Of a stretch of 64,000 bases of DNA, positions 1 to 28,531 are shown piece by piece. The DNA is taken from contig CAIXGS010000077.1 of assembly GCA_903919125.1 (NCBI GenBank), positions 1 to 64,000 on the forward strand. The letters are read 5' to 3'. Numbering within the stretch: the first letter of the stretch is position 1; each line of letters begins with the position of its first letter. The position numbers were made by a program, and so were the translations under genes. The DNA is from an uncultured Spartobacteria bacterium. Its GTDB lineage: Bacteria; Verrucomicrobiota; Verrucomicrobiia; Chthoniobacterales; Chthoniobacteraceae. The notes beneath the pieces were generated by a model. It was given only the letters and a program-made list of their open reading frames with translations, was not told the DNA's origin and ran no database searches.

Positions 1-3000
1 GGCAACCACTTCGGCGCTCGTGAGTGCAAACACTTGGCCCGTTGTCAACGCGGCCACCCGATCCGTCGCCAGAGACACCACTTGAGCGGTGCTCAGCGCA
101 ACCACCTGATCGGTGGTCAACGCCACCACTTGGGAAGTCGTAAGCGCCGTTACCTGACCCGTGGACAGTGCGTACACATCTCCAGTTTCGATGGCCACGA
201 CCTGCGAGGTGCTCAACACCACCACCTGATCGGTGGTTAGCGAGTTCACCTGCGAACTGGTCAAGGCCACGATGTCATTAGTGGTCAAGGCTATTGCCTG
301 ACTCGTCGTGAGAGCAACGACCTGATCCGTGGACAGCACCTGAACATTATCGGTGACTAGTGCCACAAGCTGCTTCGTGGTCAAGGCAACCACCTGGGCA
401 GTCGTCAGCGCAACCACCTCGGCGCTCGTCAGAGCAAACACCTGCTTCGTGGTCAACGCAGCCACGCGATCCGTCGCCAGAGACGCCACTTGGGCCGTGC
501 TCAGAGCAACCACCTGATCGGTCGTCAAGGCCACCACTTGGGAAGTCGTCAGCGCGATCACCTGGCCCGTGGACAGAGCGTACACATCTCCGGTTTCGAT
601 TGCCACAACCTGCGCAGTACTCAACCCGACCACCTGATCGGTGGTCAGCGCGTTCACCTGCGAGCTGGTCAAGGCCACGATGCCGTTAGTGGTCAAGGCT
701 CTCGCTTGGCTCGTGGTCAGTGCAACGACCTGATCCGTAGACAGTACCTGGACATTGTCAGTGACCAGAGCCACAACCTGCTTCGTGGTCAAGGCAACCA
801 CCTGGGCAGTCGTCAAGGCAACCACTTCAGCGGTGGTCAGAGCGAACACCTGACCCGTTGTCAACGCAGCCACGCGATCCGTCGCCAGAGCCACCACTTG
901 GGCCGTGCTCAGAGCAACCACCTGATCGGTCGTCAACGCCACCACTTGGGAAGTCGTCAGCGCGGTCACTTGGCCGGTAGACAGGGCGTACACATCTCCA
1001 GTTTCGATGGCCACGACCTGCGAGGTGCTCAACACCACCACCTGATCGGTGGTCAGCGCGTTCACCTGCGAACTGGTCAAGGCGACGATGTCATTAGTGG
1101 TCAAGGCTATTGCCTGACTGGTCGTCAGAGCAGCAACCTGAACCGTGGACAGCACTTGGACGTTGTCGGTTACGAGTGCCACAACCTGCTTAGTAGTCAA
1201 CGCAACCACCTGGGCTGTCGTCAAGGCAACCACTTCGGCGCTCGTGAGAGCAAACACCTGACTGGTGGTCAACGCGGCCACGCGATTCGTCTCCAGAGAC
1301 ACCACTTGAGCAGTGCTAAGAACAACCACCTGATCGGTCGTTAACGCCGCCACTTGCGAAGTCGTCAGCGCCGTGACTTGGCTTGTGGACAAGGCGTACA
1401 CATCTCCAGTTTCGATGGCCACAACCTGCGAGGTGCTCAACGCCACCAGTTGGTCGGTGGTCAGCGCGTTCACCTGCGAGCTGGTCAAGGCCACGATGTC
1501 ATCGGTGGTCAAGGCTCTCGCCTGACTCGTCGTAAGAGCAGTGACCTGATCCGTGGACAGCACTTGGACGTTGTCTGTGACTAGTGCCACAACCTGCTTG
1601 GTGGTCAAGGCAACCAACTGCGCAGTGGTCAAGGCAACCACTTCGGCGCTCGTGAGCGCGAACACCTGCTTCGTGGACAAGGCAGCCACGCGATCCGTCG
1701 CCAGAGACACCACTTGGGCCGTGCTCAGAACAACCACCTGATCGGTCGTCAACGCCACCACTTGGGAAGTCGTCAGCGCGGTCACCTGGCCGGTAGACAG
1801 GGCGTACACATCTCCAGTTTCGATGGCCACAACCTGCGAGGTGCTCAACGCCACCACCTGATCGGTGGTCAGCGCGTTCACCTGCGAGCTGGTCAGGGCT
1901 ACAATTTCATCAGTGGTCAAGGCTCTCGCCTGACTCGTCGTCAGAGCAGCAACCTGATCCGTGGACAGGACTTGAACGTTGTCGGTTACCAGTGCCACGA
2001 CCTGCTTGGTGGTCAAGGCAACCACCTGTGCAGTGGTTAGCGCAACGACCTCAGCGCTCGTGAGCGCGAACACCTGCTTCGTGGACAAGGCAGCCACGCG
2101 ATCCGTCGCCAGAGACACCACTTGGGCCGTGCTCAGAGCAACCACCTGATCGGTCGTCAACGCCACTACTTGGGAAGTCGTCAGCGCCGTCACCTGGCCT
2201 GTGGACAGGGCGTACACATCTCCAGTTTCGATGGCCACAACCTGCGAGGTGCTCAATGCCACCACCTGATCGGTGGTCAGCGCGTACACCTGCGCACTGG
2301 TCAAAGCTACGACGTCGTTAGTGGTCAAGGCTCTCGCCTGACTCGTGGTTAGAGCCGCGACTTGATCCGTGGACAGCACTTGGACGTTGTCGGTGACTAG
2401 TGCCACAACCTGCTTCGTGGTCAAGGCAACCACCTGCGCAGTGGTCAAGGCAACCACCTCGGCGCTCGTTAGCGCGAACACCTGACTCGTGGTCAACGCG
2501 GCCACTCGATCCGTCGCCAGAGACACTACCTGAGCGGTGCTCAGCACAACCACCTGATCGGTGGTCAGTGCCGCCACTTGGGAAGCCGTCGCCGCCGTCG
2601 TCTGACTGGTGGACATGGCGTACAAATCTCCAGTTTCAATAGCCACAACCTGAGCAGTGCTCAACGCCACCACCTGATCGGTGGTCAGTGCGTAAACCTG
2701 CGAGCTGGTCAAGGCTACAATGTCATTAGTCGTCAAGGCTCTCGCCTGACTCGTGGTCAGAGCTGCGACCTGAGCTGTGGACAGCGCCTGAACGTTATCG
2801 GTGATCAGCGCCACCAACTGCTTAGTAGTCAACGCAACCACTTGGGCCGTCGTCAAGGCAACCACCTCAGCGCTCGTCAAGGCTACCACTTGCGCAGTCG
2901 TCAAGACCACCACACGATCCGTGGCGAGGGAAGCCACTTGGGCAGTGGTCAACGCTACCAACTGGCCGGTGGTCAGAGAAACTACTTGAGCGGTGGTCAA

Positions 3001-4658
3001 GGCTGCAGCTTGGCTCGTGGACAGAGCGACAACGTCTCCGGTTTCAATAGCCACCACCTGCGCGGTGCTCAACGCTACCACCTGATCGGTCGTTAAGGCG
3101 GAGGCCTGCACGCTGGTCAAGGCCACGATATCACCTGTGGTCAACGCTCTGACCTGGCTGGTCGTAAAGGCGGCGACTTGGTCAGTCGTCAGGACCTGAA
3201 CATTGTCAGTGGTAAGCACCACCAACTGCTTGGTGGTCAATGCGACCACCTGAGCTGTTGTCAAGGCAACTGCCCCAGCGCTCGTCAAGGCTACCACTTG
3301 AGCGGTTGTCAAGGCCACCACCCGGTCGGTAGCGAGAGACACCACTTGGGCAGTGTTCAAGGCGACCAACTGAGTCGTGGTTAAGGCGGCTACTTGCGCC
3401 GTCGTGAGTGCCGTAGACTGGCTTGTCGAGAGGGCGTACAAATCACCCGTCTCAATTGCGGTTAACTGAGCAGTGCTCAATGCCACCACTTGGTCGGTTG
3501 TCAATGAAACAGCCTGAGACGTGGTCAATGCCACCAGTTCATTCGTGGTCAACGCTCTGACCTGGCCGGTTGTGAAGGCTGCGACTTGATCAGTCGTCAG
3601 GACCTGTACATTTTCGGTGAGCAATACCACCAACTGCTTGGTGGTCAACGCAACCACCTGTGCAGTCGAGAGGGCCGCTACTTCGGCACTAGCCAAGGCC
3701 ACCACCTGTGCAGTTGTCAAGGCCACCACCCGATCGGTGGCGAGAGACACTACTTGGGCAGTGCTCAAGGCGACCAACTGAGTCGTAGTTAAAGCGGCTA
3801 CTTGCGCCGTAGTCAGCGCCGTGGCCTGACTCGTCAACAGTGCGTACACATCACCAGTCTCAATCGCAGTTAGCTGCGCGGTGCTCAACGCCACCACTTG
3901 ATCTGTGGTGAATGCAGACACCTGAGCGCTGGTCAGCGCCACAACTTCACCAGTGTTCAATGACCTTACTTGGTTTGTCGTAAACGCAACCAGTTGAGAA
4001 GTGGTCAGTGCCTGAATATTGCTAGTGGTAAAGGCGACAACCTGCTTGGTAGTGAAGGCGACAACCTGGATGGTTTCCAATGCCGCTACCTCAGCGGTGG
4101 TCAAGGAGGCCACCTGCGACGTAGTAAAGGCCACGACCTGCGCCGTTGTCAGAGCCACCACCTGACTAGTGCTCAAAATAGCCACTTGACCCGTGCTCAG
4201 AGACACCACTTGGGCTGTCGTCAGAGCCGTCGCCTGACTCGTAGAGAGTGCATAAACGTCCTCAGTCTCTAGCGCCACCACCTGTGCTGTGCTCAAGACA
4301 ACCAACTGATCAGTGGTCAGTGCATTCACCTGAGCACTGCTCAAGGCAACCACTTCACCTGTGGTCAAAGACTTCACCTGACCCGTAGTCAGTGAAACCA
4401 CCTGCGCCGTAGACAAGGCCTGAACATTGCCCGTAACCAGCGCCACCAATTGCTTGGATGTTAAGGCGACTACTTGGGCGGTCGTCAATGCAACCACCTG
4501 ATCGCTCGTCAAGACAGTGATCTGGCCCGTGGTCAACGCAACCACTTGGTTCGTAGTGAAGGCCGCCGCCTGACTCGTCAACAACGCCACCACTTGCGAA
4601 GTACCCAAGGATACCACTTGCGAAGTGGTCAGGGCAGAAGACTGACTCGTCGACAAGG
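1..4658 (-). repeat. 408-bp super-repeat block A (most homogeneous)
   Basis: A marker element reading CGTACACATCTCC on the plus strand (octad I-E-T-G-D-V-Y-A in the protein) begins at 171, 579, 987, 1395, 1803, 2211, 2619, 3027, 3435, 3843 and 4251, always 408 bp apart, although its sequence drifts after about 2600. Units are 17 octads long. The units up to about 2700 are nearly identical at the DNA level, and the block continues past the left edge. The first 67 bp of the units at 171 and 987 are identical, while the unit between them (579) differs at about 8 of the first 60 positions. Confidence 0.92.
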
Positions 4659-7600: not shown

Positions 7601-10600
7601 GTTTCAAGCGCCGCGATCTGGGCGGTTCTGAAGGCAACGACCTGCGAAGTCGTCAGCGCATACGCCTGAGAAGAAGTCAGCGCAACTACCTGATCGGTGG
7701 TCAGCGAGGATATCTGAGCGGTCGTTAGAGCAACCGCTTGGCTTGTCGTTAGGGCGCCGATCTGAGCGGTGCCCAGCGTGACCACTTGGGCGGTCTTGAG
7801 GGCGGCTGCCTGTGCGGTGCTCAGCGCGACTAGTTCACCAGTCGTCAGCGCCGCAACCTGAGAGGTCGTGAAGGAGGAAACCTGAGCAGTGCCAAGGGCC
7901 AAGACGCTACTCGTAGAAAGCGCCACGATCTCACCCGTTGTCAGAGCCACTAACTGCGCGGTAGTCAGCGCCACGGCCTGAGCAGTAGACAGCACGGCAA
8001 TGTCACTGGTCTCGAGGGCGACCACCTGAGACGTGGTGAGCGCAACAACCTGCGCGGTCGTGAGGGCATACACTTGAGCTGTGGTCAGCGCCTCCACTTG
8101 CGCAGTCGTCAAAGTAGAGAGCGCCGCGGTTGAGAGAGCTGCCGCCTGAGCGGTAGTCAGAGAAACCACCTGATCGGTAGTCAGCGTAACCGCTTGCGAC
8201 GCTTTGAGCGCCACAATCTGGCTGGTCGAGAGGGCCACCACTTCGCTAGTGGTCAACGCCACGACTTGCGCGGTCGTCAAGGCTGCGACCTGCGCCGTGC
8301 CTAAGGCAACCGCCTGACTCGTCGTCAAGGCAACCACGTCGTCGGTTGACAACACAACCAACTGAGCGGTCGTGAAGGCCGCGACTTGGCTCGTCGAAAG
8401 GGCCGCGATAATGTCTGTCTCAAGTGCCACCACCTGCTTGGTGCTGAGTGCAGCCACCTGAGAAGTCGTCAACGCGTAAGCCTGAGCGCTTGAGAGTGTA
8501 TCCACCTGATCGGTCGTGAGGGCGAAGACGCCTGCAGTGGTCAAACCGACCACCTGACTCGTCGTCAGCGCCGTTACCTGATCTGTCGAAAGAACAGCCA
8601 CTTGACTCGTCTTGAGGGAAGCCACTTGGCTCGTGCTCAGGGCCACCACTTCATCCGTTGTCAGAGCGGTTACCTGAAGCGTCGTCAACGCTGCAACCTG
8701 CGCGGTGGCCAAGGCCACGACCTGACCGGTTGTTAACGCGTACACTTCACCGGTGGTGAGGGCCACGATCTGAGCGGTCGTCAGTGCTGCGACTCTGGAG
8801 GTTTCCAGAGCGATGAGATCGCCCGTCTCGAGCGCCGCCACCTGCGCTGTCGACAAGGCAACAACTTGAGCGGTCGTCAGTACTGCGAAGTCTGCGGACT
8901 CCAGAGCCACAATCTGGCCTGTGGTCAACGCCAAAGTCGCCTGCGTCGACAAGGCCACGACCTGACTGGTCGCCAGCGCGATGATGTCGTTCGTGTTTAG
9001 CGATACGACCTGACCTGTGGTCAACGCGAAGACCTGAGAAGTGCCCAGTGCAAATACCTGATCTGTCGTCAGGGCGGCTACCTGGGAAGTGCTCAAGCTC
9101 GAAACCTGGCTCGTGCCCAGTGCAGCAACGACCGCCGTGGTCAACACAGTGATCTGCGAAGTCGGAATTGCGACAAGGCCAGCGGACTTAATCGCGCTTG
9201 CTTGGGCAGTAGTCAGCGCAAAGAGCTGATCCGTAGTGAGTACGGATGTTTGAATGGTGGAGAACGTGTTCACCTGACTTGTGGTCAGAGCGACGAAATC
9301 ATCCGTGGCCAACGCAGCCACCTGCTTGCTTGAAAGTGCCGAAACCTGCGTCGTCGTCAAGGCTGCTGCCTGACTTGTCGTAAGGGCGACTACTTCACCG
9401 GTGGTCAAAGCCACTACCTGTGCAGTGGTCAAGGCAACCATTTGACTGGTACCCAACGCCACCAAATCACCTGTTTCCAGAGCAGCGACTTGAGCCGTCG
9501 TGAGGGAAGCGATCTGCTTGGTAGTCAGCGCGTAAGCCTGCGAACTCGTCAACGCAACTACTTGGCTCGTCGTCAAAACGGATACCTGACCCGTCGTCAA
9601 AGCGACCGCCTGATCGGTAGTAAACGCCGCCACCTGTGCAGTGGTCAATGCCGCCACATTTGCTGGAGTCAACGAGGACACCTGCGAAGTCGACAAGGCC
9701 ACAACTTCGTCCGTGCTTAACGCCGCCGCCTGCTTGGTAAGCAGCGCTGCAATCTGAGCCGTCGTGAGAGCAACTGTCTGGCTGGTCGTCAACGCGACCA
9801 CTTCGCCCGTGGTCAAGGCCACCACCTGCGCAGTGGTCAGGGCCACAACCTGTCCGGTTGTCAACGCGACGAGATCACCCGTTTCCAGCGCGGCTACTTG
9901 AGCCGTCGTGAGAGAAACGATTTGTTTGGTCGTCAACGCGTAGGCTTGCGAGCTCGTCAACGCAACCACTTGGCTCGTCGTCAATACAGACACTTGACCC
10001 GTTGATAGCGCGACCGTCTGATCGGTCGTAAACGCCGCTACTTGGGCCGTCGCCAGTGCCGCCACATTCGCTGGGGTCAGAGCGGAAACCTGTGAAGTAG
10101 ACAAAGCAACCAGATCGTCTGTGCTCAATGCAGCCGCCTGCTTGGTGAGCAGCACCGAAATCTGCGCTGTCTTCAACGATGCAGCCTGACTCGTCGTCAG
10201 CGCCGCCACCTCACCGGTAGTCAAAGCTACCACCTGTGCAGTGGTCAGGATCGCCACTTGGCTAGTAGTCAAAGCCACCAAATCTCCCGTTTCAAGTGCC
10301 GCCACTTGCGCGGTTGTGAGGGAGACGATCTGTTTGGTCGTCAGTGCGTAAGCCTGTGAACTTGTCAACGCAACCACTTGGGCTGTCGTCAGAACAGACA
10401 CCTGACTCGTAGTGAGTGAAACAGACTGATCGGTTGTCAAAGCCGCCACTTGGGCCGTTGTTAGAACCGCTATATTCGCCGTCGTCAGCGCGGAAACCTG
10501 TGAAGTGGACAGCGCGACCACTTCGTCTGTGCTCAACGCAGCCACCTGCTTGCTCAACAACGCCGAGATCTGTGCTGTAGTCAAAGCTGCCGCCTGACTT

Positions 10601-13600
10601 GTCGTCAACGCCAGCACTTCACCCGTGGTCATTGCCACGATCTGCGCAGTGGTGAAGGCAACCACCTGATTGGTGCCTAAAGCAGCAAGATCACCCGTTT
10701 CCAACGCCGCCACTTGGGCCGTTGTCAGAGAGGCGATCTGCTTGGTCGTCAGCGCGTAAGCTTGCGAACTTGTCAATGCAACTACCTGACCAGTGGTCAA
10801 GACAGTCAATTGGCCCGTGGTGAGCGCAACCGCCTGATTTGTGGTAAACGCCGCCACTTGGGCTGTCGTCAATACCGCTGCGTTCGTCGTCGTCAGAGCG
10901 GCAACCTGCGAGGTCGACAAGGCTACCACCTCATCCGTAGTCAAAACAGCGGCCTGCTTGCTCAAGAGCGCCGCAATCTGCGCCGTGGTCAGAGCTGCCG
11001 CTTGGCTAGTAGCCAACGCTACCACCTCGGCCGTAGTCAGTGCCACCAACTGCGCCGTGGTAAGGGCTGCCACCTGTTTGGTACCCAAAATCGCAAGATC
11101 ACCCGTTTCAAGGGCAACCACTTGCGAGGTTGTCAGCGAGACAATCTGCTTGGTTGTCAGCGCGAAAGCCTGAGAACTTGTCAACGCAACCACCTGACTC
11201 GTCGTCAAAGCCGACACCTGATCGGTAGTCAGCGCCACGGCCTGACTTGTCGTCAACGCCGCAACTTGGTCTGTGGTCAAGGCTGCCGTGTTAGCAGTTG
11301 TTAGAGAAGCAATCTGCGAAGTGGACAGGGCTACCACACTATCCGTGGTCATTGCTACCACCTGCTTTTTCAGCAAGGCCGCGACTTGAGTCGTGGAGAG
11401 GGACGCCGCCTGACTCGTCGTCAAAGCAGCGACTTCAGAGGTACTTAACGCCACTAATTGTGCCGTGGTCAAGGCGACCGCCTGGCTCGTGCCCAACGCC
11501 ACTAAATCACCCGTTTCAAGCGCCGCCACCTGTGCGGTGGTGAGCGAAGCGACCTGCTTCGTCGTCAGCGCGAAGGCCTGGGAACTCGTCAACGCAACGA
11601 CCTGACCCGTCGACAAGACAACCAACTGGCCAGTGCTCAGTGCAACCGCTTGGCTTGTCGTCAACGCCGCCACCTGAGCCGTTGTCAAGACCGCTACGTT
11701 TGCCGTCGTCAAAGAAGAAACCTGCAACGTAGACAAGGCCACCAATTCATCCGTCGTCAAAACAGCCACCTGCTTGCTCAAGAGCGCGGAAATCTGAGCC
11801 GTCGTAAGAGACGCCGCCTGACTCGTCGTCAGTGCCACAACCTCCCCAGTGGTCAGCGCCACGACCTGCGCCGTAGTCAACGCCGCTACTTGGCTAGTTC
11901 CCAACGCCACGAGATCTCCCGTCTCCAGCGCCGCCACCTGTGCGGTAGTGAGCGAAGCGACCTGCTTCGTCGTCAAAGCGAAGGCCTGTGAACTTGTCAA
12001 CGCAACGACCTGAGCTGTAGACAGCACAACCAGTTGGCCTGTGGTCAATGCAACCGCCTGACTCGTTGTAAAGACCTCCACCTGAGATGTTGTCAGTGCC
12101 GCTGCGCTGCCCGTCGTCAAAGAAGAAATCTGCGAAGTAGACAAGGCCACCAAATCATCCGTGGTCAAAACTGCGGCCTGCTTAGTCAACAGTGAGGCAA
12201 TCTGCGTCGTCGTAAGAGCCGCCGCCTGACTCGTCGTCAAAGCCACAACCTCTCCGGTCGTCAGCGCCACTACCTGCGCAGTGGTCAGCGCCGCCACCTG
12301 GCTCGTTCCCAAAGCAACTAAATCGCTCGTTTGAAGCGCCACTACCTGTGAGGTAGTAAGCGAAGCAACCTGCTTCGTAGACAGAGCAAATGCCTGTGAG
12401 GTGGTCAAAACTGCCACCTGCGCCGTACCCAAAGTAGAGACTTGAGCCGTAGTCAACGCAACTGCTTGGCCGGTCGTCAGCACCACAACCTGACCTGTCG
12501 TCAGCGCTGCTGTATTCGCTGTCGTTAGAGAGGACACTTGCGCCGTCGTCAGCGCCACCACTCCAGCAGTGGTCAGAGAAAGCACCTGTTTGCTTAACAG
12601 AGCGGCAATCTGGGTCGTAGACAGCGCAACCGCCTGACCAGTCGTCAACGCGGACACCCCGCCCGTAGTCAACGCCACCACCTGTGCCGTGGTCAACGCA
12701 GCCACCTGACTCGTTCCCAGTGCCACAAGGTCACCGGTTTCAAGCGCAGCCACTTGGGACGTCGTGAGAGCCACGATTTGCTTCGTCGTCAGAGCATTTG
12801 CTTGTGAGGTCGTCAGCGCCACCACTTCGGCCGTACTCAGAGTAGAAGCTTGAGCGGTTGTCAATGCCACCGCTTGACCGGTAGTCAACACCGCGATCTG
12901 ACCGGTTGTCAGCGCCGCTGTGTTGGCTGTCGTTAATGAGGCTACTTGAGCCGTTGTAAGAGCCACCACTCCGTCGGTAGTCAGCGCAACCACTTGCTTG
13001 CTTAGCAAAGCAGCGACCTGCGCAGTCGTCAACGATGCCGCTTGGCTCGTGGTCAACGCAGATACCTCGGCTGTACTCAACGAAACGATCTGCGCTGTAG
13101 TGAAGGCCGCCACTTGGCTGCTGCCCAATGCCACAAGATCGTCGGTTTCAAACGCAGCCACCTGAGCGGTCGTGAGTGCGACTATCTGTTTCGTCGTCAA
13201 TGCGGAGGCTTGCGCAGTCGTCAACGCCACCACTTGTGCGGTCGACAATGCCACCACCTGCGCCGTTCCCAAAGCCACCGCCTGAGCGGTCGTCAAAGAA
13301 GTAACCTGACCGGTCGTGAACGCTGCAACGTTTGCAGTCGTCAATGAGGCAACTCGTGAAGTTGAAAGCGCCACGACTCCGTCCGTGGTCAAAGATACAA
13401 GCTGCTTACTTGGAATCACCGACACCTGCGCTGTAGTGAAGGCCGCCATCTGGCTCGTAGTCAACGCTGACACTTCAGCGGTGCTAAACGCCACGATCTG
13501 CGCCGTGGTGAAGGCCGCCACTTGACTCGTACCTAATGCCACGAGATCACCCGTTTCAAACGCTGCTACCTGTGCGGTCGTGAGGGCGACGATCTGCTTG

Positions 13601-16600
13601 GTGCTCAACGCATTTGCCTGTGACGTCGTCAAAGCAACCAACTGGGCCGTGGTCAAAGTCGAAACTTGAGCCGTAGTCAACGCAACAGCCTGGCTTGTTG
13701 TCAAAACGGATATCTGATCCGTGGTCAACGCCGCTGAATTTGCAGTGGTTAGCGAGACGATCTGCGAAGTGGAAAGGGCAACCACTTGGTCAGATGTCAA
13801 CACGAGCAGCTGTTTCTTCAGCAATGCCGCGACCTGTGCGGTCGTCAAGGCAGCCGCCTGACTTGTGCCCAATACAGACACCTCGCCCGTGCTCAGAGCC
13901 ACGACCTGTGCCGTGTTGAATGCCGCCACTTGGTTGGTTCCAAGCGCCACAAGGTCGTCTGATTCGAGCGCGACTACTTGGGCCGTTGTAAGAGACACGA
14001 TCTGCTTAGTCGACAAGGCCACTGCCTGTGAAGTCGTTAAGGCAACAATCTGACTGGTCGAAAGAGCAGAAACCTGAACCGTTGTCAGCGCCACAGCCTG
14101 AGCCGTCGTCAACGAGCTTACCTGGTCAGTCGTTAGAGCCAGCCCTTGGGCCGTAGTTAATGATACAATTTGCGAGGTGGTCAACGCCACCAAGTCGGCC
14201 GTCGCTAACGCCGCCACTTGCTTGCTCAGTAACGCGGAAACCTGCACCGTAGTCAGAGCTGCGGCTTGGCTTGTCGTCAGAACAGCCACATTATCAGTGG
14301 TCAACGCCACAACTTGGGCTGTGTTGAATGCTGCTACCTGAGACGTTCCTAGCGCCACCAAATTTCCAGTCACAATCGAGGCTACCTGACGACTCGAAAG
14401 GGAGACCACCTGCTTGGTCGTCAATGCATACGCCTGAGAACTGGTGAGAACGACGATCTGCCCAACACTCAAAGAAACCACCTGTGAAGTCGTCAGCGAA
14501 GCCACCTGCGAAGTCGTCAAGACAGAAACCTGATCCGTGGACAGCGCCACGGCCTGCGCAGTGGTCAGAGACGCAACCAGCGAGGTTGTTAAAGCAACCA
14601 GATCATCCGTGCGAAGGGCAACGACCTGTTTGGTTGAGAGGGATGAGATCTGGGCGGTCGTAAAGGCGGCCGCTTGGCTCGTTGTTAGAGCGGACACCCC
14701 GTCCGTAGTCAGTGAAACGACCTGCGCCGTAGTCAAGGCCGCAACCTGACTTGTTCCGAAAGCGACCACGCTGTCCGTTCCCAACCCAGCCAACTGAGCT
14801 GTCGTGAGAGCAATCACCTGCTTCGTCGTCAACCCAACGATTCCAGCGGTAGTGAGCGCGAAAGTCTGACCTGTTGTCAAGGTACCGACCTGAGCGCTAG
14901 TGAAGGCCGCAGCCTGAGCGGTCGTTAGGGCGGAAACCTGAGCAGATCCAAGCGCAGCGATCTGGACTGTGGTCAGGGACACCAACTGTGCGGTGCTCAA
15001 AGCAACCAATTCATCCGTGGTAAGAGCCGCAATCTGCTTCGTCAACAGCGCTGAAAGCTGAATAGTAGAGAGCGCAGCCACTTGACTGGTCGCTAGGGCT
15101 ACCACCTCGCCCGTGCTCAACGCCACTACCTGGGAAGTGGTCAGAGCCTTAATCTGGCTTGTGCCCAACACGGCGAGGTCGCCCGTCTCAACCGCCACCA
15201 ACTGAGCGGAAGTCAGACTAACTACCTGCTTCGTCGTCAAAGCACTTAGCTGAGCTGCAGAAAGAGCGACCACTTGATTGGTGGTCAAAGAAGCAACCTG
15301 CGCGGTGGTCAGAGAAGCAACCTGCGCGGTGGTCAAAACGGAAATCTGGTCCGTGCTCAGCACTGCCGCTTGAGCCACAGTCAATGAAGATACCTGCAAA
15401 GTCGTCAAGGCATACACCTCGTCCGTGGTCAGGGATCCTAACTGCGCAGTGCGGAGGGCACTCACCTGCAAGCTGGTTAAAGAAGCAACCTGAGCGGTGC
15501 TCAAGGCAACCAACTGCGTGGTGCTCAAACCAACCACCTGATCCGTAGTGAGCGCAGCAAGCGTGCTGCCACCCACTGCCACGAGATCGCCAGTTTCTAG
15601 CGCCACTAACTGCGAAGCGGAAAGTGCGACAATCTGCTTGCTAGTCAGCGCATTCGCCACGGAGCTCGTAAGGGCCACGACCTGAGCTGTGCTTAAAGCA
15701 GCAACCTGCGCCGTCTTGAGAGCTGTCGCCTGGTTCGTCGTTAAGGCAGAAACTTGATCGGAAGTCAGCGCCGCCGATTGAGCTGTGCCAAAGGAAACCA
15801 CCTGCGCGGTTGTCAATGCAGCCACCGCGGAGGTGGTCAAAGCGGCAACCTGCTTCAAGGCGAGCGTCGATGTTTGCAGCGAAGTTAACGCGACCACCTG
15901 TCCAGTGGTCAAGGAAGCCACCTGATCCGAGGTGAGGGAAACAACCTGAGCCGTCGACAGGGAAATAATCTGATTGGATTGCAATGCAACCACCTCAGCT
16001 GTAGTGAGAGAAACCACCTGCGCATTGCTCAAAGACGAAACCTGAGCCGTCCCAAATGCCGCAACCTGACTGGTCGCCAACGCCACCAATTGACTCGTCG
16101 AGAGTGCACGCAATTGAAGCGAGGAGAAGGTCGCCACCTGAGCCGTCGAGAAAGCAACCAGAGCACTGGTGGAGAGACCCGAGACCTGAGAAGTCGTGAG
16201 CGCCGCGACCTGACTGGTGGAAATTGACGCAGATTGGCTCGTGGAAAGAACCGCTAACTGCCCCGTACCGAAGGCCGCACGCTGCTGCGTACTCAACGCC
16301 GCAAGCTGGCTGGTGCTCAGCACTTCAATATCATCCGTTCCCAGTGCAGCAATCTGCAGTGTGGTAAGGGCCGCGATCTGCTTTGTGGAGAGAGCCGCAA
16401 CCTCATCGCTGGTCAAAGCAAGAACCTGCCGAGAGGTCAGGGCAACTACCTGAGCAGTGGTCAAGGCAACAGCCTGCGCCGTAGTGAGAGCCTGAACCTC
16501 ATCAGTGGTCAAAGAGGCCACCTGCGCGGTTGTTAGGGCTGCGATACCAGAGGTCTTAAACGCCTGCAGATCACCTAGTTCAATAGCCACCACCTGCCCA

Positions 16601-19600
16601 GTGGTCAAGGATGCCACCTGATCCGATGTTAGGGCCGCTGCCTGCGAACTTGTCAGAGAAACCACTTGTCCAGTGGTTAACGCCACAACCTGGGCCGTTG
16701 TCAAAGCCGCCACACGCGAGGTTGCCAACGCGGACAAACCATCGGTGGTCAATGCAACCACCTGAGCACTAAGCAAGGAAGAAATCTGACGCGTCGTCAG
16801 TGCGAATACTTCGCCAGTCGTCAATGCGGCCACCTGCGAGGTCGAAAGCGCAGTAACTTGAGACGTCGTCAAGGAAGCCACCTGCGCGGTCGCCAGTGCG
16901 CTAATTCCGCCAGTCGTCAATACCTTGACCTGCGCAGACGTCAGCGACACCACTTGGGATGTCGTAAGCAGATCCAGAGCATCCACCTCCACGGCGACTA
17001 TCTGAGCTGTGGTTAAGGCAACAACCTGCTTCGTGGACAGAGCGACCAATTGATCGTCGGTAAGAGCAACGATGTTGGCGGTGGTCAATGCAGCCACCTG
17101 CACGCTGGTCAATGACACCGTTTGGCTCGTTGTCAGCGCGGACACCTGATCCGAAGTGAGAGCCGCGACCTGCGATGTGGTAAGCGAAGAAATTTGTTTT
17201 GTGCTCAAAGCGACAGCTTCAGCCGTCGAGAGGGAGCGCAACTGTTTGCTGGTGAGTGCCGTAATTTGATCTGTAGTCAGAGCGATGGCCTGTGATGTCG
17301 TAAGGGCCAACAATTCGTCTGTTGTCAGGGCAATCACCTGAGCTGAGGTCAAGGACACGACCTGAGCGGTGGAGAGTGCTTGGACGTTATCCGTGGAAAG
17401 CGCGGAAACCTGAGAGGTCGAAAGAACGACCACCTGTTTTGTCGTAAGCGCAAATGCCTGACTGGTAGTCAGTGAAGCCACCGCACCCGTTGTTAGGGCA
17501 ACGATCTGGGCGGTAGTGAGAGACACTCCTTGAGCGGTGGTCAGAGCCACCAACTGATCCGTAGTTAAAGCGACGACCTGCGCAGACCCGAGCGCTGAAA
17601 CTTGCGAGGTCTTCAAAGAAACAACTCCTGCGGTTGTCAACACCTTTACCTGCCTGGTCGACAAGGAACTGACCTGAGTCGTCGTGAGCGAGGAGATCTG
17701 ATCCGTGGTCAGCGACTGGACATCATCTGTAGTGAGCGCCAAAATTTGAGCTGTCGTGAAAGAAGCCACCTGAGAGGTGCTCAGCGCCACCAGGTCACCA
17801 GTTTCAATCACCACCACTTGGGCCGTGGTGAAGGCGGCCACCTGCTTGGTGCCAAATGCAGCAAACTGACTGCTGGAGAGTGCCACTACATTACTCGTGG
17901 TCAATACAGTTACCTGCGCCGTAGTCAAAGAAACAGCTTGCGAAGTAGTCAATGCAACCACCTGATCCGAGGTCAAAGCGGCGACTTGCGCGGTCCCCAA
18001 CATCGCCACCTGCGAAGTTTTAAGTGCGGCGATCTCCACCGACGTTAAAGCCCTCACCTGCTTACTGCTCAAAGAGTTTAACTGTACCGTCGTAAGCGCC
18101 TCCACCTGAAGTGTTGTCAACGACTGTATTTCGTCGGTTGTAAGCGCCAGAATCTGCGCGGTTGTGAACGCGATCAATTGGGCCGTTGTGAACGCAACAA
18201 GATCTTGGGTTTCAATCGCCACCACCTGAGATGTGGTCAGCGCCGCCACCTGCTTAGTGGTCAATGCAGAAGCTTGATCGCTAGAAAGCGCGACCAAATC
18301 ACCGGTCGTCAATGCCACGGCCTGCAATGTAGTCAATGCAGCGACTTGGGAAGTACTCAGCGCGGATATCTGGTCCGTCGTCAAGGCAGCCACTTGGGCG
18401 GTCCCCAAACCAACAACTTGCGAAGTCTTGAGTGAAGAAACTTCCTCCGTCGTCAAAACCCTCACCTGCTTGGTGCTCAACGAACTCAGCTGAGTCGTCG
18501 TCAAAGAGGAAGCCTGAAGCGTCGTCAACGACTGCACTCCGTCAGTGGTCAGCGCCAAGATCTGAGAGGTTGTTAGGGCCACCACCTGCGCCGTAGTCAA
18601 AGCCGCGATGTCGCCAGTTTCAATCGCCACGATCTGCGCAGTGGTCAGGGCCGCAATCTGCCTGGTGTTTAAAGCTGCAAACTGATCACTGGAGAGCGCC
18701 ACCAAATTCGCTGTCGTCAACGCCACCACCTGCAACGTCGTGAATGCAACCGCCTGCGAAGTACTCAACACACCCACCTGATCGCTCGTCAAAGCGGCCA
18801 CTTGCGCCGTCCCAAGAGCGGCGACCTGCGCCGTCTTAAACGCAGCCACCTCCGTGCTCGTCAAAGCCTTGACCTGCTTGGTGCTCAACGAACTCAGTTG
18901 AGTCGTCGTCAAAGAGGACGCTTGAAGCGTGGTTAGCGACTGCACTCCGTCAGTGGTCAGCGCTACAATCTGAGATGTCGTTAGAGCCACCACCTGCGCC
19001 GTGGTCAACGCCGCAATGTCGCCCGTTTCAATCACCACGATCTGCGCGGTGGTCAGGGCCGCGATCTGCTTTGTGTTTAAAGCTGCAAATTGCTCGCTGG
19101 TAAGCGCCACCACATTCCCAGTAGTCAAGGAAACCACCTGTAGCGTTGTGAACGCGGCTGCCTGCGACGTACCCAGCACAGAGACTTGATCACTCGTCAA
19201 AGCCGCCACCTGCGCCGAGCCCAACGCAACCAACTGAGATGTCTTGAGCGAAACCAATTCCGCCCCGTTCAGAGCCCGCAACTGTGCAGTCGTCAACGTA
19301 CCAACTTGCGCAGTCGTCAAGGAAACAATCTGGGCAGTCGTTAGAGACTGCACTCCGTCCGTTGTGAGAGCCGTAATCTGCGCGGTCGTGAATGCCGATA
19401 CTTGATTCGTGCCAAGAACAGAAACTTCCTGCGTGGTCAAGGATGCCAACTGCTTGGACGTCAAAGAAATGATTTGCTTGGTGCCAAAAGCAGTTAACTG
19501 ATCCGAACTCAAAGCCACCAACTGCGCCGTCGACAAAGACGAAATCTGGCTCGTACCCAAAGACACAGCCTGAAGCGTTGTGAGAGCAGCAACCTGATCG

Positions 19601-20421
19601 GTTGTAAGAGAGACCAACTGGGCAGTGGACAACGCTGCAACCTGAGCGGTAGCCAGAGAAGCCACCTGAATCGTGGGAAGGGAAACCAACTGCTTGGTCG
19701 TCAAAGGAGCAATCTGCGAAGTCCCAAGCGAAACCAATTGATCGGTACTCAGGGCGGAGAGGAAGTCAGAAGACAGAGCTGAGACCTGGCTGGTCGTCAA
19801 CGCACGGACTTGACGAGTAGAAAATGCCTGTAACTGGTCGCTCGAAAGGACGTTTAACACCTTACTACTGAGAACAGTCACCTGGAAAGAGGTCAGCGCA
19901 TACGCCTGATCCGTAGTCAACACAGAGGCTTGGTCCACGGTCAAACCGGCGACCTGAACACTGCTCAAACCGACAAGTTGCGCCGTTGTTAAAGCCTGAA
20001 AATCATCAGTGGCAACAGCAGCAAATTGCGCAACACCAAACGCACCCAACTGCTTCGTAGTCAGCGCCACAACCTGATCACTGGTCAATGACTGCACCTG
20101 ACTAGAAGTCAATGAACTAACTTGAGCCGTGCTCAAAGCCACCGCCTGACCGGTAGTTAAGTATGAAACTTGGCTCGTTGTTAACGCCGCTATCTGTGAG
20201 GTGAGGAGGGACTGAAGATTTCCTGTCCCGATCGCCGAAATTTGATCCTCACTTAGTGACGCCAACCCCTTTGCCCCCAAGGCAATCAGCTGACCGCTTT
20301 TCAGTGCACCTATGTTCTCCACGGTCAGCGTCTGAAGCTCGCTAGTGGTGTAAGCCGCGAATTGAGCAGTCGTCAGGCCGGAAACCTGTGTGGTGGTTAA
20401 GGAAGAGAAGTCAGTGGGCAT
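1..20421 (-). CDS. Giant octapeptide-repeat protein (C-terminus beyond left edge)
   Basis: The ATG at 20421-20419 opens a frame that runs to the left edge (6807 codons). I translated many separate stretches and both ends and found no in-frame stop, though I did not check every codon. The start MPTDFSSLTTTQV leads directly into octads of the form L-T-T-x-Q-V-x-A with no signal peptide or membrane segment. The only upstream in-frame codons before a TGA near 20464 contain no other start. The repeated Gln codon falls at positions congruent to 10 modulo 24 at both ends and at each mid-point tested, so the octad register is kept throughout. Every 17th octad carries E-T-G-D instead of T-T-x-Q. No Cys or Trp appeared in the parts I translated. 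No good ribosome-binding site is visible. Function is unknown. A very large surface or secreted fibrous protein is the most natural guess, and secretion would need a signal at the unseen C-terminus. It is followed upstream by a 397-bp gap, so it is probably its own transcription unit. Confidence 0.9.
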   Translation of the reverse strand, partial: MPTDFSSLTTTQVSGLTTAQFAAYTTSELQTLTVENIGALKSGQLIALGAKGLASLSEDQISAIGTGNLQSLLTSQIAALTTSQVSYLTTGQAVALSTAQVSSLTSSQVQSLTSDQVVALTTKQLGAFGVAQFAAVATDDFQALTTAQLVGLSSVQVAGLTVDQASVLTTDQAYALTSFQVTVLSSKVLNVLSSDQLQAFSTRQVRALTTSQVSALSSDFLSALSTDQLVSLGTSQIAPLTTKQLVSLPTIQVASLATAQVAALSTAQLVSLTTDQVAALTTLQAVSLGTSQISSLSTAQLVALSSDQLTAFGTKQIISLTSKQLASLTTQEVSVLGTNQVSAFTTAQITALTTDGVQSLTTAQIVSLTTAQVGTLTTAQLRALNGAELVSLKTSQLVALGSAQVAALTSDQVSVLGTSQAAAFTTLQVVSLTTGNVVALTSEQFAALNTKQIAALTTAQIVVIETGDIAALTTAQVVALTTSQIVALTTDGVQSLTTLQASSLTTTQLSSLSTKQVKALTSTEVAAFKTAQVAALGTAQVAALTSDQVGVLSTSQAVAFTTLQVVALTTANLVALSSDQFAALNTRQIAALTTAQIVAIETGDIAALTTAQVVALTTSQILALTTDGVQSLTTLQASSLTTTQLSSLSTKQVRVLTTEEVSSLKTSQVVGLGTAQVAALTTDQISALSTSQVAALTTLQAVALTTGDLVALSSDQASALTTKQVAALTTSQVVAIETQDLVAFTTAQLIAFTTAQILALTTDEIQSLTTLQVEALTTVQLNSLSSKQVRALTSVEIAALKTSQVAMLGTAQVAALTSDQVVALTTSQAVSLTTAQVTVLTTSNVVALSSSQFAAFGTKQVAAFTTAQVVVIETGDLVALSTSQVASFTTAQILALTTDDVQSLTTDQISSLTTTQVSSLSTRQVKVLTTAGVVSLKTSQVSALGSAQVVALTTDQLVALTTAQGVSLTTAQIVALTTGAVASLTTSQAFALTTKQVVVLSTSQVSALSTDNVQALSTAQVVSLTSAQVIALTTDELLALTTSQAIALTTDQITALTSKQLRSLSTAEAVALSTKQISSLTTSQVAALTSDQVSALTTSQTVSLTSVQVAALTTANIVALTDDQLVALSTKQVVALTTAQIVAVEVDALDLLTTSQVVSLTSAQVKVLTTGGISALATAQVASLTTSQVTALSTSQVAALTTGEVFALTTRQISSLLSAQVVALTTDGLSALATSRVAALTTAQVVALTTGQVVSLTSSQAAALTSDQVASLTTGQVVAIELGDLQAFKTSGIAALTTAQVASLTTDEVQALTTAQAVALTTAQVVALTSRQVLALTSDEVAALSTKQIAALTTLQIAALGTDDIEVLSTSQLAALSTQQRAAFGTGQLAVLSTSQSASISTSQVAALTTSQVSGLSTSALVAFSTAQVATFSSLQLRALSTSQLVALATSQVAAFGTAQVSSLSNAQVVSLTTAEVVALQSNQIISLSTAQVVSLTSDQVASLTTGQVVALTSLQTSTLALKQVAALTTSAVAALTTAQVVSFGTAQSAALTSDQVSALTTNQATALKTAQVAALSTAQVVALTSSVANALTSKQIVALSASQLVALETGDLVAVGGSTLAALTTDQVVGLSTTQLVALSTAQVASLTSLQVSALRTAQLGSLTTDEVYALTTLQVSSLTVAQAAVLSTDQISVLTTAQVASLTTAQVASLTTNQVVALSAAQLSALTTKQVVSLTSAQLVAVETGDLAVLGTSQIKALTTSQVVALSTGEVVALATSQVAALSTIQLSALLTKQIAALTTDELVALSTAQLVSLTTVQIAALGSAQVSALTTAQAAAFTSAQVGTLTTGQTFALTTAGIVGLTTKQVIALTTAQLAGLGTDSVVAFGTSQVAALTTAQVVSLTTDGVSALTTSQAAAFTTAQISSLSTKQVVALRTDDLVALTTSLVASLTTAQAVALSTDQVSVLTTSQVASLTTSQVVSLSVGQIVVLTSSQAYALTTKQVVSLSSRQVASIVTGNLVALGTSQVAAFNTAQVVALTTDNVAVLTTSQAAALTTVQVSALLSKQVAALATADLVALTTSQIVSLTTAQGLALTTDQVSSLTTAQAVALTTVQVSALSTSQIVALTTSQAVALSTKQIVSLTTAQVVALESDDLVALGTNQVAAFNTAQVVALSTGEVSVLGTSQAAALTTAQVAALLKKQLLVLTSDQVVALSTSQIVSLTTANSAALTTDQISVLTTSQAVALTTAQVSTLTTAQLVALTTSQANALSTKQIVALTTAQVAAFETGDLVALGTSQVAAFTTAQIVAFSTAEVSALTTSQMAAFTTAQVSVIPSKQLVSLTTDGVVALSTSRVASLTTANVAAFTTGQVTSLTTAQAVALGTAQVVALSTAQVVALTTAQASALTTKQIVALTTAQVAAFETDDLVALGSSQVAAFTTAQIVSLSTAEVSALTTSQAASLTTAQVAALLSKQVVALTTDGVVALTTAQVASLTTANTAALTTGQIAVLTTGQAVALTTAQASTLSTAEVVALTTSQANALTTKQIVALTTSQVAALETGDLVALGTSQVAALTTAQVVALTTGGVSALTTGQAVALSTTQIAALLSKQVLSLTTAGVVALTTAQVSSLTTANTAALTTGQVVVLTTGQAVALTTAQVSTLGTAQVAVLTTSQAFALSTKQVASLTTSQVVALQTSDLVALGTSQVAALTTAQVVALTTGEVVALTTSQAAALTTTQIASLLTKQAAVLTTDDLVALSTSQISSLTTGSAAALTTSQVEVFTTSQAVALTTGQLVVLSTAQVVALTSSQAFALTTKQVASLTTAQVAALETGDLVALGTSQVAALTTAQVVALTTGEVVALTTSQAASLTTAQISALLSKQVAVLTTDELVALSTLQVSSLTTANVAVLTTAQVAALTTSQAVALSTGQLVVLSTGQVVALTSSQAFALTTKQVASLTTAQVAALETGDLVALGTSQAVALTTAQLVALSTSEVAALTTSQAASLSTTQVAALLKKQVVAMTTDSVVALSTSQIASLTTANTAALTTDQVAALTTSQAVALTTDQVSALTTSQVVALTSSQAFALTTKQIVSLTTSQVVALETGDLAILGTKQVAALTTAQLVALTTAEVVALATSQAAALTTAQIAALLSKQAAVLTTDEVVALSTSQVAALTTTNAAVLTTAQVAAFTTNQAVALTTGQLTVLTTGQVVALTSSQAYALTTKQIASLTTAQVAALETGDLAALGTNQVVAFTTAQIVAMTTGEVLALTTSQAAALTTAQISALLSKQVAALSTDEVVALSTSQVSALTTANIAVLTTAQVAALTTDQSVSLTTSQVSVLTTAQVVALTSSQAYALTTKQIVSLTTAQVAALETGDLVALTTSQVAILTTAQVVALTTGEVAALTTSQAASLKTAQISVLLTKQAAALSTDDLVALSTSQVSALTPANVAALATAQVAAFTTDQTVALSTGQVSVLTTSQVVALTSSQAYALTTKQIVSLTTAQVAALETGDLVALTTGQVVALTTAQVVALTTGEVVALTTSQTVALTTAQIAALLTKQAAALSTDEVVALSTSQVSSLTPANVAALTTAQVAAFTTDQAVALTTGQVSVLTTSQVVALTSSQAYALTTKQIASLTTAQVAALETGDLVALGTSQMVALTTAQVVALTTGEVVALTTSQAAALTTTQVSALSSKQVAALATDDFVALTTSQVNTFSTIQTSVLTTDQLFALTTAQASAIKSAGLVAIPTSQITVLTTAVVAALGTSQVSSLSTSQVAALTTDQVFALGTSQVFALTTGQVVSLNTNDIIALATSQVVALSTQATLALTTGQIVALESADFAVLTTAQVVALSTAQVAALETGDLIALETSRVAALTTAQIVALTTGEVYALTTGQVVALATAQVAALTTLQVTALTTDEVVALSTSQVASLKTSQVAVLSTDQVTALTTSQVVGLTTAGVFALTTDQVDTLSSAQAYALTTSQVAALSTKQVVALETDIIAALSTSQVAAFTTAQLVVLSTDDVVALTTSQAVALGTAQVAALTTAQVVALTTSEVVALSTSQIVALKASQAVTLTTDQVVSLTTAQAAALSTAALSTLTTAQVEALTTAQVYALTTAQVVALTTSQVVALETSDIAVLSTAQAVALTTAQLVALTTGEIVALSTSSVLALGTAQVSSFTTSQVAALTTGELVALSTAQAAALKTAQVVTLGTAQIGALTTSQAVALTTAQISSLTTDQVVALTSSQAYALTTSQVVAFRTAQIAALETGDLVSLSTSQIAALTTLQVVVLTTDEVVALTTSQAFALGTAQVAALTTSQIDALTTSQVVALSTSQAAALKTSQATALTTGQIAALTTNQAVALTTAQLVALTTDQVVALTSSQAYALTTAQVVALRTAQVVALETGDLVSLSTSQVSAFTTSQIVALSTDEVVALSTSQAFALGTAQVAALTTAQVSALTTGEVVALSTSQIAALRTSQSTVLTTAQIVALTTAQAVALTTAQVSTLTTDQVVALTSSQAFALTTAQITALTTAQLVVLETADLVSLSTAQAAALTTSQVSALTTDEVVALTTSQAFALGTSQIAALTTSQVVALTTGELVALSTAQVVALKTNQAVVLTVDQIAALTTGQAVALTTAQVSALTTDQVVALTSSQAYALSTSQIAALKTAQIVALETGDLVSLSTAQVVSLTTAQVVALTTDEVVALSTSQAVALGTAQIAALTTSQVAVLTTAEVVALSTAQVVALTSNQVVALTVDQIAALTTSQAVVLTTAQAFALTTDQVVALTSSQATALTTAQIAALKTSQVVALETGDLVALTTAQVLSLTTAQVVALTTDEVVALSTSQAVALSTQQIAVLKTSQVAVLTTAEVVALTTAQVAALTTIQAVALTSDQIAVLTTSQTVALTTAQVVAFTTDQIVALTSSQANALKTTQIAALKTSQVVALETGDLVSLSTKQVVALTTAQVVALTTDEVVALSTSQAVALGTAQVAALTTSQIVALTTGEVVALSTSQIAALKTNQATALTTDQVAALTTAQAFALTTDQVFALTTDQVVALTSAQALALKTGQIVALRTTQIAALETGDLVSLSTSQIFALTTAQVVALTTDEVVALTTSQAFAFGTAQVASLTTSQVAVLTTGEVVALSTAQIASLRTSQAAALTTDQVAALTTDQTVALTTAQIVALTTDQVVALTSSQAFALTTAQVASLRTVQVVALDTVDLASLSTAQVVALTTAQVVALTTDEVVALSTSQSSALTTSQVVSLGTSQVVALLTSQAAAFTTNQVVALTTGQITVLTSDQVVALTTAQVVALTSKQLVALVTGNVQALSTAQVVSLTTGQVKSLTTGEVVALSSAQVNALTTDQLVVLSTAQVVALETEDVYALSTSQATALTTAQVVSLSTGQVAILSTSQVVALTTAQVVAFTTSQVASLTTAEVAALETIQVVAFTTKQVVAFTTSNIQALTTSQLVAFTTNQVRSLNTGEVVALTSAQVSAFTTDQVVALSTAQLTAIETGDVYALLTSQATALTTAQVAALTTTQLVALSTAQVVSLATDRVVALTTAQVVALASAEVAALSTAQVVALTTKQLVVLLTENVQVLTTDQVAAFTTGQVRALTTNELVALTTSQAVSLTTDQVVALSTAQLTAIETGDLYALSTSQSTALTTAQVAALTTTQLVALNTAQVVSLATDRVVALTTAQVVALTSAGAVALTTAQVVALTTKQLVVLTTDNVQVLTTDQVAAFTTSQVRALTTGDIVALTSVQASALTTDQVVALSTAQVVAIETGDVVALSTSQAAALTTAQVVSLTTGQLVALTTAQVASLATDRVVVLTTAQVVALTSAEVVALTTAQVVALTTKQLVALITDNVQALSTAQVAALTTSQARALTTNDIVALTSSQVYALTTDQVVALSTAQVVAIETGDLYAMSTSQTTAATASQVAALTTDQVVVLSTAQVVSLATDRVAALTTSQVFALTSAEVVALTTAQVVALTTKQVVALVTDNVQVLSTDQVAALTTSQARALTTNDVVALTSAQVYALTTDQVVALSTSQVVAIETGDVYALSTGQVTALTTSQVVALTTDQVVALSTAQVVSLATDRVAALSTKQVFALTSAEVVALTTAQVVALTTKQVVALVTDNVQVLSTDQVAALTTSQARALTTDEIVALTSSQVNALTTDQVVALSTSQVVAIETGDVYALSTGQVTALTTSQVVALTTDQVVVLSTAQVVSLATDRVAALSTKQVFALTSAEVVALTTAQLVALTTKQVVALVTDNVQVLSTDQVTALTTSQARALTTDDIVALTSSQVNALTTDQLVALSTSQVVAIETGDVYALSTSQVTALTTSQVAALTTDQVVVLSTAQVVSLETNRVAALTTSQVFALTSAEVVALTTAQVVALTTKQVVALVTDNVQVLSTVQVAALTTSQAIALTTNDIVALTSSQVNALTTDQVVVLSTSQVVAIETGDVYALSTGQVTALTTSQVVALTTDQVVALSTAQVVALATDRVAALTTGQVFALTTAEVVALTTAQVVALTTKQVVALVTDNVQVLSTDQVVALTTSQARALTTNGIVALTSSQVNALTTDQVVGLSTAQVVAIETGDVYALSTGQVIALTTSQVVALTTDQVVALSTAQVASLATDRVAALTTKQVFALTSAEVVALTTAQVVALTTKQLVALVTDNVQVLSTDQVVALTTSQAIALTTNDIVALTSSQVNSLTTDQVVVLSTSQVVAIETGDVYALSTGQVTALTTSQVVALTTDQVVALSTAQVVSLATDRVAALTTGQVFALTSAEVVA
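4731..9218 (-). repeat. 408-bp super-repeat block B
   Basis: The marker octad, here mostly L-E-T-G-D-L-V-S, recurs at 4731, 5139, 5547, 5955, 6363, 6771, 7179, 7587, 7995, 8403 and 8811. Every step is 408 bp. The block is separated from block A by a 480-bp step (20 octads), so the phase shifts by three octads while the 24-bp register is kept. Units are clearly related but more diverged in DNA than in block A. Confidence 0.9.
9459..15986 (-). repeat. 408-bp super-repeat block C
   Basis: Marker positions are 9459, 9867, 10275, 10683, 11091, 11499, 11907, 12315, 12723, 13131, 13539, 13947, 14355, 14763, 15171 and 15579, sixteen markers all 408 bp apart. The marker here mostly reads L-E-T-G-D-L-V-A-L-G-T, with decayed versions near 13947, 14355 and 14763. 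A second recurrent landmark is an octad with L-L-S-K-Q. The step from block B is 648 bp (27 octads). Confidence 0.9.
16563..19418 (-). repeat. 408-bp super-repeat block D (N-terminal side, most diverged)
   Basis: Markers with I-E-T-G-D or a decayed form occur at 16563, 16971 (weak), 17379 (replaced), 17787, 18195, 18603 and 19011, again 408 bp apart. The step from block C is 984 bp (41 octads), and the intervening octads show no clear marker apart from a possible relic at 16323. Between 19419 and 20400 octads persist but I cannot see the 17-octad order. Confidence 0.8.
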
Positions 20422-26511: not shown

Positions 26512-26822
26512 GGGGGTTGCTTTAAAAGGAGGGGCTTCTTCTTTGGGGAATTTCTACGCTTACCATACCGGTCCGCTGGGAGCCAAGAGAACCGCGTGCC
26601 GAGGCTGGAGAAGCTACAAGGAGTTTGCACGAGTGCCCAAAAGTAACGCGTCAGCAACGGAGAAAAAGCTGAGCGGAATATACCTTGGTGGTAATACTGC
26701 CTAGAATTCCGACGCTGCGCCGGGGTGAATGGTACTTTCCGTGCAAAAATTTGAACGTTCTTGCCGCCAATGGTGTCTCAGCGCAAAGAAACCCTGTAAG
26801 GGCGTTTTCCGTCCAAAATTCC
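26512..26822. other. Divergent intergenic region, SGNH hydrolase / ABC cluster
   Basis: 311 bp between two divergent genes, expected to carry both promoters. Open frames crossing it look like chance. I see no clear operator, riboswitch or terminator. Confidence 0.5.
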
Positions 26823-27800: not shown

Positions 27801-28531
27801 AACCCATCCTCACAATCACCAAACGCGAGCTCACCGGTTATTTCGCCTCGCCGGTAGCCTTTGTCTTCATCGTTATCTTCCTGATGCTCTCCGGCTTTTT
27901 CACCTTCATGGTGGGCGGCTTCTTTGAGCGCGGACAGGCAAGTCTGGAATCCTTTTTTGCGTGGCATCCTTGGCTGTACCTGTTTTTGGTTCCGGCCGTG
28001 GGCATGCGGATGTGGAGCGAGGAGCGTCGTCTTGGCACCCTCGAACTCCTACTCACCATGCCTGTAACGCCATGGCAGGCCATTCTCGGTAAGTTCTTCG
28101 CAGCTTGGCTCGTCGTAGCATTGGCTCTGGGACTCACTTTCCCAATCTGGTTGACGGTCAATTACCTCGGGAACCCTGATAACGGAATCATCCTCGCTGG
28201 ATACTTGGGTTCCTTCCTCATGGGAGGCGCCTACCTTTCCATCACGGCGATGACCTCCGCCATGACCCGCAACCAAGTCGTGGCGTTCATCGTCTCGGTG
28301 GTGCTCTCGCTTTTCCTGATCCTCGCGGGCTACCCGCCGGTGACCAACCTGCTCACGGCTTGGGCAAGTCCCCTGCTCGTAGACGCCATCGCGGCCTTCA
28401 GCGTGATGACACATTTTGAGAGCATCCAAAAAGGGGTCATCGACTCACGCGACATCCTCTACTTCCTCTCGGTCATCGTGTTCTCACTCTTCACTACGGG
28501 CGTTATTGTGCGTACGCACCGCGCCGGCTAA
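27797..28531 (+). CDS. ABC-2 type permease (GldF-like)
   Basis: A 244-residue membrane protein with about six hydrophobic segments. It begins MKPILTITKRELTGYFASP, the usual opening of ABC-2 permeases of this class, and contains the conserved WSEERRLGTLELLLTMPV block. The start overlaps the ATPase stop (ATGA), showing translational coupling. It is the membrane channel partner of the ATPase encoded just before it. Confidence 0.92.
   Translation: MKPILTITKRELTGYFASPVAFVFIVIFLMLSGFFTFMVGGFFERGQASLESFFAWHPWLYLFLVPAVGMRMWSEERRLGTLELLLTMPVTPWQAILGKFFAAWLVVALALGLTFPIWLTVNYLGNPDNGIILAGYLGSFLMGGAYLSITAMTSAMTRNQVVAFIVSVVLSLFLILAGYPPVTNLLTAWASPLLVDAIAAFSVMTHFESIQKGVIDSRDILYFLSVIVFSLFTTGVIVRTHRAG

Follow-up and report, generated by a model that had tools for sequence, protein, structure and literature searches.

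Among the known systems closest to the protein considered here are giant exported adhesins. LapA, SiiE, and MpAFP, which are exported by type I secretion systems (T1SS), are repetitive and thousands of residues long (PMC6272769, PMC7493085). In Haemophilus, HMW1C, a GT41-family enzyme encoded beside HMW1, glycosylates this large exported adhesin in the cytoplasm before its export (PMC3983070, PMC3012730). The repeat studied here also has a catalogue entry of its own, since the Pfam model PF20080 (ALTTAQ) describes the same octapeptide. Literature searches on ALTTAQ/PF20080 found no paper. Thus, the view of the initial annotation that such octads had no assigned structure or function was nearly right, except that the repeat already carries a Pfam name; as far as we found, the family is catalogued while its function is unassigned in the literature.

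We analyzed a 64,000-nucleotide stretch (the window) at the start of a contig from an uncultured Spartobacteria bacterium of the Chthoniobacteraceae (Verrucomicrobiota), about a third of which is occupied by one octad gene. Our preferred reading, which we hold to be reasonably likely, is that this gene encodes a giant alpha-solenoid rod that is O-glycosylated on Thr/Ser by an OGT-type GT41 enzyme and exported by a T1SS to form a surface or extracellular fibre. To the Pfam repeat model, the present analysis adds a predicted solenoid, a 17-octad unit, a 3.4-octad period, and links to T1SS and GT41 genes.

The giant octad gene and its repeat

The gene comprises the following features:

1 to 20,421, minus strand: 5′ part of the giant octad (ALTTAQ, PF20080) gene, 6,807 codons, with the 3′ end lost at the contig end
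20,401 to 20,421, minus strand: non-octad N-terminus MPTDFSS, with no signal peptide by inspection
19,177 to 20,400, minus strand: N-terminal diverged octads, with a super-repeat identity of 0.39–0.53 at the residue level
2,857 to 19,176, minus strand: main array, in which super-repeats of 17 octads (136 aa, 408 bp) keep a nearly constant phase apart from a few 7-octad shifts
1 to 2,856, minus strand: youngest, most homogenised super-repeats (85–92% DNA identity), where the assembly stops
10,201 to 11,016, minus strand: 34-octad segment used for AlphaFold2 (pLDDT 97.2, pTM 0.88, one 5–6 residue helix per octad)

Translation of the minus strand from 20,421 to 1 gave 6,807 codons starting with MPTDFSSLTTTQVSG and containing no stop, and the assembly showed no in-frame stop or frameshift, in agreement with the single frame, still open at the left edge, that had been described initially. 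From residue 8 on, the protein consists of 850 octads that all keep the same register, uninterrupted by insertions or deletions. Position 1 is Leu in 770 of the 850 octads, position 5 is Gln in 649, and position 8 is Ala in 614; Thr or Ser occupies position 2 in 78% and position 3 in 97%, and Ser and Thr together make up 29% of the octads. Two 1,000-aa stretches matched PF20080 with E values of 7.5e-215 and 5.1e-248 (694.8 and 800.9 bits against a Pfam gathering cut-off of 26.4), placing the protein in this family, and PF20080 matches ran along the whole frame, confirming the octad composition read from the letters alone. Matches of CAAP1, SAM_3, lant_leader, GspA_C39-like, and other Pfam/NCBIfam models on the octads were short composition matches and were set aside.

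The monotony that had also been ascribed to the array was not borne out. The octads are organised in a super-repeat of 17 octads (136 residues, 408 bp) whose phase is nearly constant through the gene and whose units are diverged near the N-terminus and 85–92% identical in DNA at the contig end. Between adjacent 408-bp units, synonymous differences (pS 0.62) were far above non-synonymous ones (pN 0.19), with a median dN/dS of 0.13, indicating that the array is a selected protein and not a satellite. Unequal exchange, acting on complete 408-bp units, may be how the array grows.

The window begins at the first base of its contig in an 87-contig draft assembly (4.34 Mb, 95% complete). Because the contig ends within the gene, 6,807 codons is a lower bound on the gene's length. 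Extension of the array, which the initial annotation had proposed as a way to the C-terminus, showed the frame to be open to contig base 1, but no other contig of the same genome matched the array end and the C-terminus was not reached. In congeners, octad genes likewise lie mostly at contig ends, with assembly breaks recurring at the homogenised end.

PF20080 was found in 2 of 241 sampled genomes of the phylum and in 10 of the 12 genomes of the window's genus. Since the family is rare in the phylum and frequent in the genus, the octad gene was possibly gained by transfer. Octad proteins vary in size, and some genomes carry several copies; octad genes stand side by side in several genomes (L046:833-12914, L062:7104-14950, and loci L074, L075, and L069). 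A plasmid collection contained no octad match, and gene 51 of Mycobacterium phage Squirty (NC_026588.1:36427-36870) showed a weak, 27% octad-like match.

The other genes of the window showed no synteny with the octad loci of relatives. Among them, genes for an ABC ATPase, an ABC-2 membrane protein, ABC_transp_aux, and DUF4340 stand in a row at 26,685–31,652 and resemble gliding-type ABC systems. A CorA-like transporter gene lies between two P-type ATPase-like ORFs (34,669–40,055), the first of which (34,669–36,795) matched the E1-E2 ATPase family alone, without a match to a hydrolase domain. At 46,518–50,546, a 1,342-aa protein combines AMP-binding and carrier domains with a hexapeptide domain at its C-terminus; it looks like an NRPS-like adenylation protein to which an acyltransferase-like repeat has been fused.

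A predicted alpha-solenoid with a period of 3.4 octads

Structure prediction, which the initial annotation had suggested for two or three super-repeats, was run with AlphaFold2 on the 34-octad segment with 100 aligned rows. The resulting model was confident (pLDDT 97.2, pTM 0.88) and predicted a continuous alpha-solenoid with one helix of 5–6 residues per octad, at positions 3–8. Position 2 (Thr/Ser/Gly) precedes each helix in the model, so that Thr-2 is likely the helix N-cap.

Octad-to-octad similarity along the window protein rose and fell every 3.40 octads (z = 92 versus octad shuffles). The octad protein of G019, which does not have the 136-residue duplication, showed a period of 3.41 octads. 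When 70 family proteins of at least 100 octads each were surveyed, the strongest peak lay at 3.2–3.6 octads in 54 of them, mostly at 3.38–3.41, and near 2.4–2.5 octads in another 10, a position compatible with the second harmonic of 3.4 after folding. From this period, the solenoid probably has 3.4 octads (about 27 residues) per turn, in which case the 17-octad super-repeat would equal exactly five turns. As a rough estimate, the 850 octads would then form about 250 turns, or about 0.25 micrometre at 1 nm per turn.

The best Foldseek match of the model was mesothelin (E 2.8e-3, TM 0.39), with none at E ≤ 1e-3, and VIA gave Z values of 5.8–7.5 to armadillo proteins, a range that is generic for helical repeats. 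Mesothelin and ARM-type alpha-solenoids share a superhelix of short helices with the modelled octad protein, but neither a sequence relation nor a structural match at E ≤ 1e-3. The motif LTPDQVVAIAS, which we take to be that of TALE repeats, resembles the octad; a TALE-like reading was rejected, as the octads are predicted to be single helices in 8-residue steps rather than hairpins of 33–35 residues.

Type I secretion and GT41 genes beside octad genes

Directly 3′ of the octad gene, three congeners (G001, G003, and G011) and G024, from another genus of the family, carry genes for an ABC exporter of the HlyB type and a HlyD adaptor of the type I kind. In these four, TIGR01846 was the best family for HlyB, at 592–617 bits and thus below its 725-bit cut-off, and HlyD matched TIGR01843 above the cut-off. 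In G013, likewise from that other genus, HlyB/HlyD genes 3′ of the octad gene were detected with custom HMMs. The octads of G003, whose contig C160 is identical to the public record CANJZW010000160.1, are the closest to those of the window; among loci, the window repeats are nearest to L050 and L049, the latter of which has T1SS genes at its 3′ end. The window's own genome, which is incomplete, yielded no HlyB/HlyD of this type on its assembled contigs; the genes may lie in the gap after the contig end or may truly be absent. The octad genes of congeners G004 and G008, and some of those of G006, have neither T1SS nor GT41 genes nearby, and outside the phylum only 10 of 76 loci showed T1SS linkage.

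The ends of the proteins were compared as well. The N-termini of congeners (MPFDFTT, MPFNFQA, and MSFNFSS) resemble the MPTDFSS of the window; relatives begin with an M(P/S)F..F-like sequence, and their octads leave only a few residues uncovered at the C-terminus. By inspection, no signal peptide or anchor was apparent at the window N-terminus or at the ends of relatives. Position-specific conservation marks the last ~130 residues of the Verrucomicrobiota members, most of which end with (N/S)AL(Y/F) and a short tail, and the C-terminal end of one relative was modelled as a solenoid up to the last few residues (pLDDT 94). Members from Burkholderiales, Gallionella, and Pseudomonas carry an extra domain of ~250–340 aa with LDLDGDGV-like calcium-site motifs, for which no confident Pfam family was found in these beta/gamma-proteobacterial proteins.

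In G019 and G204, the gene immediately 3′ of the octad gene encodes a GT41 enzyme, at a distance of 35 bp in G204; this last genome, from another family of the class, was added only after the GT41 idea had been formed. In G011, an OGT-type GT41 gene follows hlyD. Among 39 complete loci of other phyla, 28 had GT41 within 6 kb of the octad gene, a number that does not represent 28 independent events because the rhizobial loci share ancestry; the linked loci came from Pseudomonas, Rhizobium, Sinorhizobium, Methylocystis, Rhodobacter, Undibacterium, Sphaerotilus, Gallionella, an acidobacterial MAG, and others. Of the 11 loci lacking it, at least three contain another octad gene as a neighbour. Octad, GT41, and T1SS genes occur together in five of the other-phyla loci; such combinations were seen in Rhodobacteraceae, Undibacterium, Rhodoferax, and another Burkholderiales MAG, as well as in G011. 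The nine genomes checked had only 1–3 GT41 genes each, and in four of them the sole GT41 gene is the octad neighbour; with so few genes, we estimate a probability of about 1% that a GT41 gene would stand beside an octad gene at random. Loci of close relatives are not independent of each other; still, an association that recurs in several phyla and in varying gene order speaks for a functional link between octad and GT41 genes.

Two GT41 neighbours that were tested matched XcOGT (E 1e-75 to 1e-86) and animal OGT (up to 1e-88), whereas they matched HMW1C-type enzymes at only about 1e-5 to 1e-6, which does not fit an HMW1C-type N-glycosyltransferase partner. Equivalents of the key OGT residues His-498 and Lys-842 were kept in 13 of 13 aligned GT41 proteins. 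The window's own genome encodes a 1,320-aa TPR-GT41 protein (G000:C78:24904-28863; L152:8904-12863) that shares 59% identity, across 1,043 residues, with the GT41 protein encoded next to the T1SS genes of G006. This protein also carries a GT4-like glycosyltransferase domain at about residues 763–943, as if one protein added two sugars.

A T1SS-exported alpha-solenoid fibre might also be left unglycosylated, the neighbouring GT41 acting on another product of the same locus. The five T1SS linkages in Verrucomicrobiota and the octad loci with no GT41 nearby agree with such a fibre, but no conserved neighbour lies nearer than GT41 across phyla, several genomes have no further GT41 gene, and the octads are rich in Ser and Thr, above all at position 3; we consider this version unlikely. 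The octad protein could instead stay in the cytoplasm as a scaffold or cytoskeletal rod and carry OGT modifications comparable to the intracellular O-GlcNAc of eukaryotes. This would accord with no signal peptide or anchor having been seen, with the own genome lacking an assembled T1SS, and with the greater frequency of GT41 than of T1SS genes next to octad genes outside the phylum. Against it, HlyB/HlyD genes lie directly 3′ of octad genes in two genera of the family and also in several proteobacteria, and the conservation of the C-terminal octads is compatible with an export signal at that end, leaving a cytoplasmic rod with a small probability.

The initial annotation had offered a very long fibre or a surface layer component. 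The first stood in kind, with the predicted alpha-solenoid, the HlyB/HlyD genes of relatives, and the lack of a visible signal peptide pointing to a long fibre; the second gained no specific support. Some S-layer proteins are exported by T1SS, and the octad protein is large, repetitive, and probably T1SS-exported; yet no S-layer anchoring or RTX domain was found, the protein varies in size with several copies within some genomes, and its distribution in the phylum is patchy, so that an S-layer lattice protein is very improbable. Finally, although the draft assembly stops within the most homogenised repeats, the array length is hardly to be explained by an assembly artefact or a decaying gene, given the absence of any stop, frameshift, or register slip across 6,807 codons, the 20–50% DNA difference of most units (too diverged for easy mis-joining), the low dN/dS, and the complete relatives of 3,000–4,000 aa known within large contigs.

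The proposed glycosylated fibre and known systems

In the glycosylated fibre that we favour, the octad protein would be synthesised without a signal peptide, each L-T-T-x-Q-V-x-A octad folding into one short predicted alpha-helix and the helices coiling into a continuous alpha-solenoid of about 3.4 octads per turn. Judging from the gene linkages, an OGT-type GT41 enzyme would O-glycosylate the Thr/Ser rows in the cytosol, and a HlyB/HlyD type I system would read the conserved C-terminal octads and export the protein. The exported rod might then act in attachment or spacing as a long fibre, either extracellular or on the cell surface. Whether an open-length all-alpha octad solenoid, OGT-glycosylated helical Thr/Ser rows, and T1SS export form a three-part system common to Verrucomicrobiota, Proteobacteria, and Acidobacteria is, in our judgement, evenly balanced.

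If the proposal is correct, the ALTTAQ family would gain a fold and a function, and an all-alpha architecture would join the giant T1SS-exported proteins. To our knowledge, the natural substrates of bacterial OGT homologues are mostly unknown; these enzymes would gain a concrete substrate that can be tested and that offers a very large number of sites on each molecule. The 3.4-octad period is a falsifiable structural prediction and would be useful for helical-rod design. Literature searches on GT41 with type I secretion, or on OGT with adhesins, found no paper, and we found no description of octad solenoid, bacterial OGT, and T1SS as one system.

The individual parts have known counterparts. 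Like LapA, SiiE, and MpAFP, the octad protein has thousands of repetitive residues, no visible N-terminal signal peptide, and, in relatives, T1SS genes near its gene. These adhesins, however, consist of tandem, Ca2+-stiffened beta-sandwich domains (PMC6272769, PMC7493085), whereas the octad protein is predicted to be all-alpha; the octad stretches scanned contained no Pfam domain for RTX repeats or beta-sandwich extenders, and no ligand-binding domain was seen in the protein. With HMW1/HMW1C of Haemophilus, it shares the pairing of a large, here putatively exported, protein with a neighbouring GT41-family gene, here a linkage observed in relatives; HMW1C, in contrast, is an N-glycosyltransferase working with two-partner export, while the proposed octad system would have an OGT-type enzyme, expected to form O-linkages, and a T1SS exporter. 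The octad-neighbour enzymes resemble the GT41 members OGT, XcOGT (PDB 2jlb), and SPINDLY in matching XcOGT and keeping the key His and Lys, and would differ from them in that the proposed substrate is an exported repeat protein; the donor sugar could be GlcNAc or fucose. Together, these comparisons present the proposed system as a variant of the giant exported, glycosylated fibres that would be new in its all-alpha octad solenoid build.
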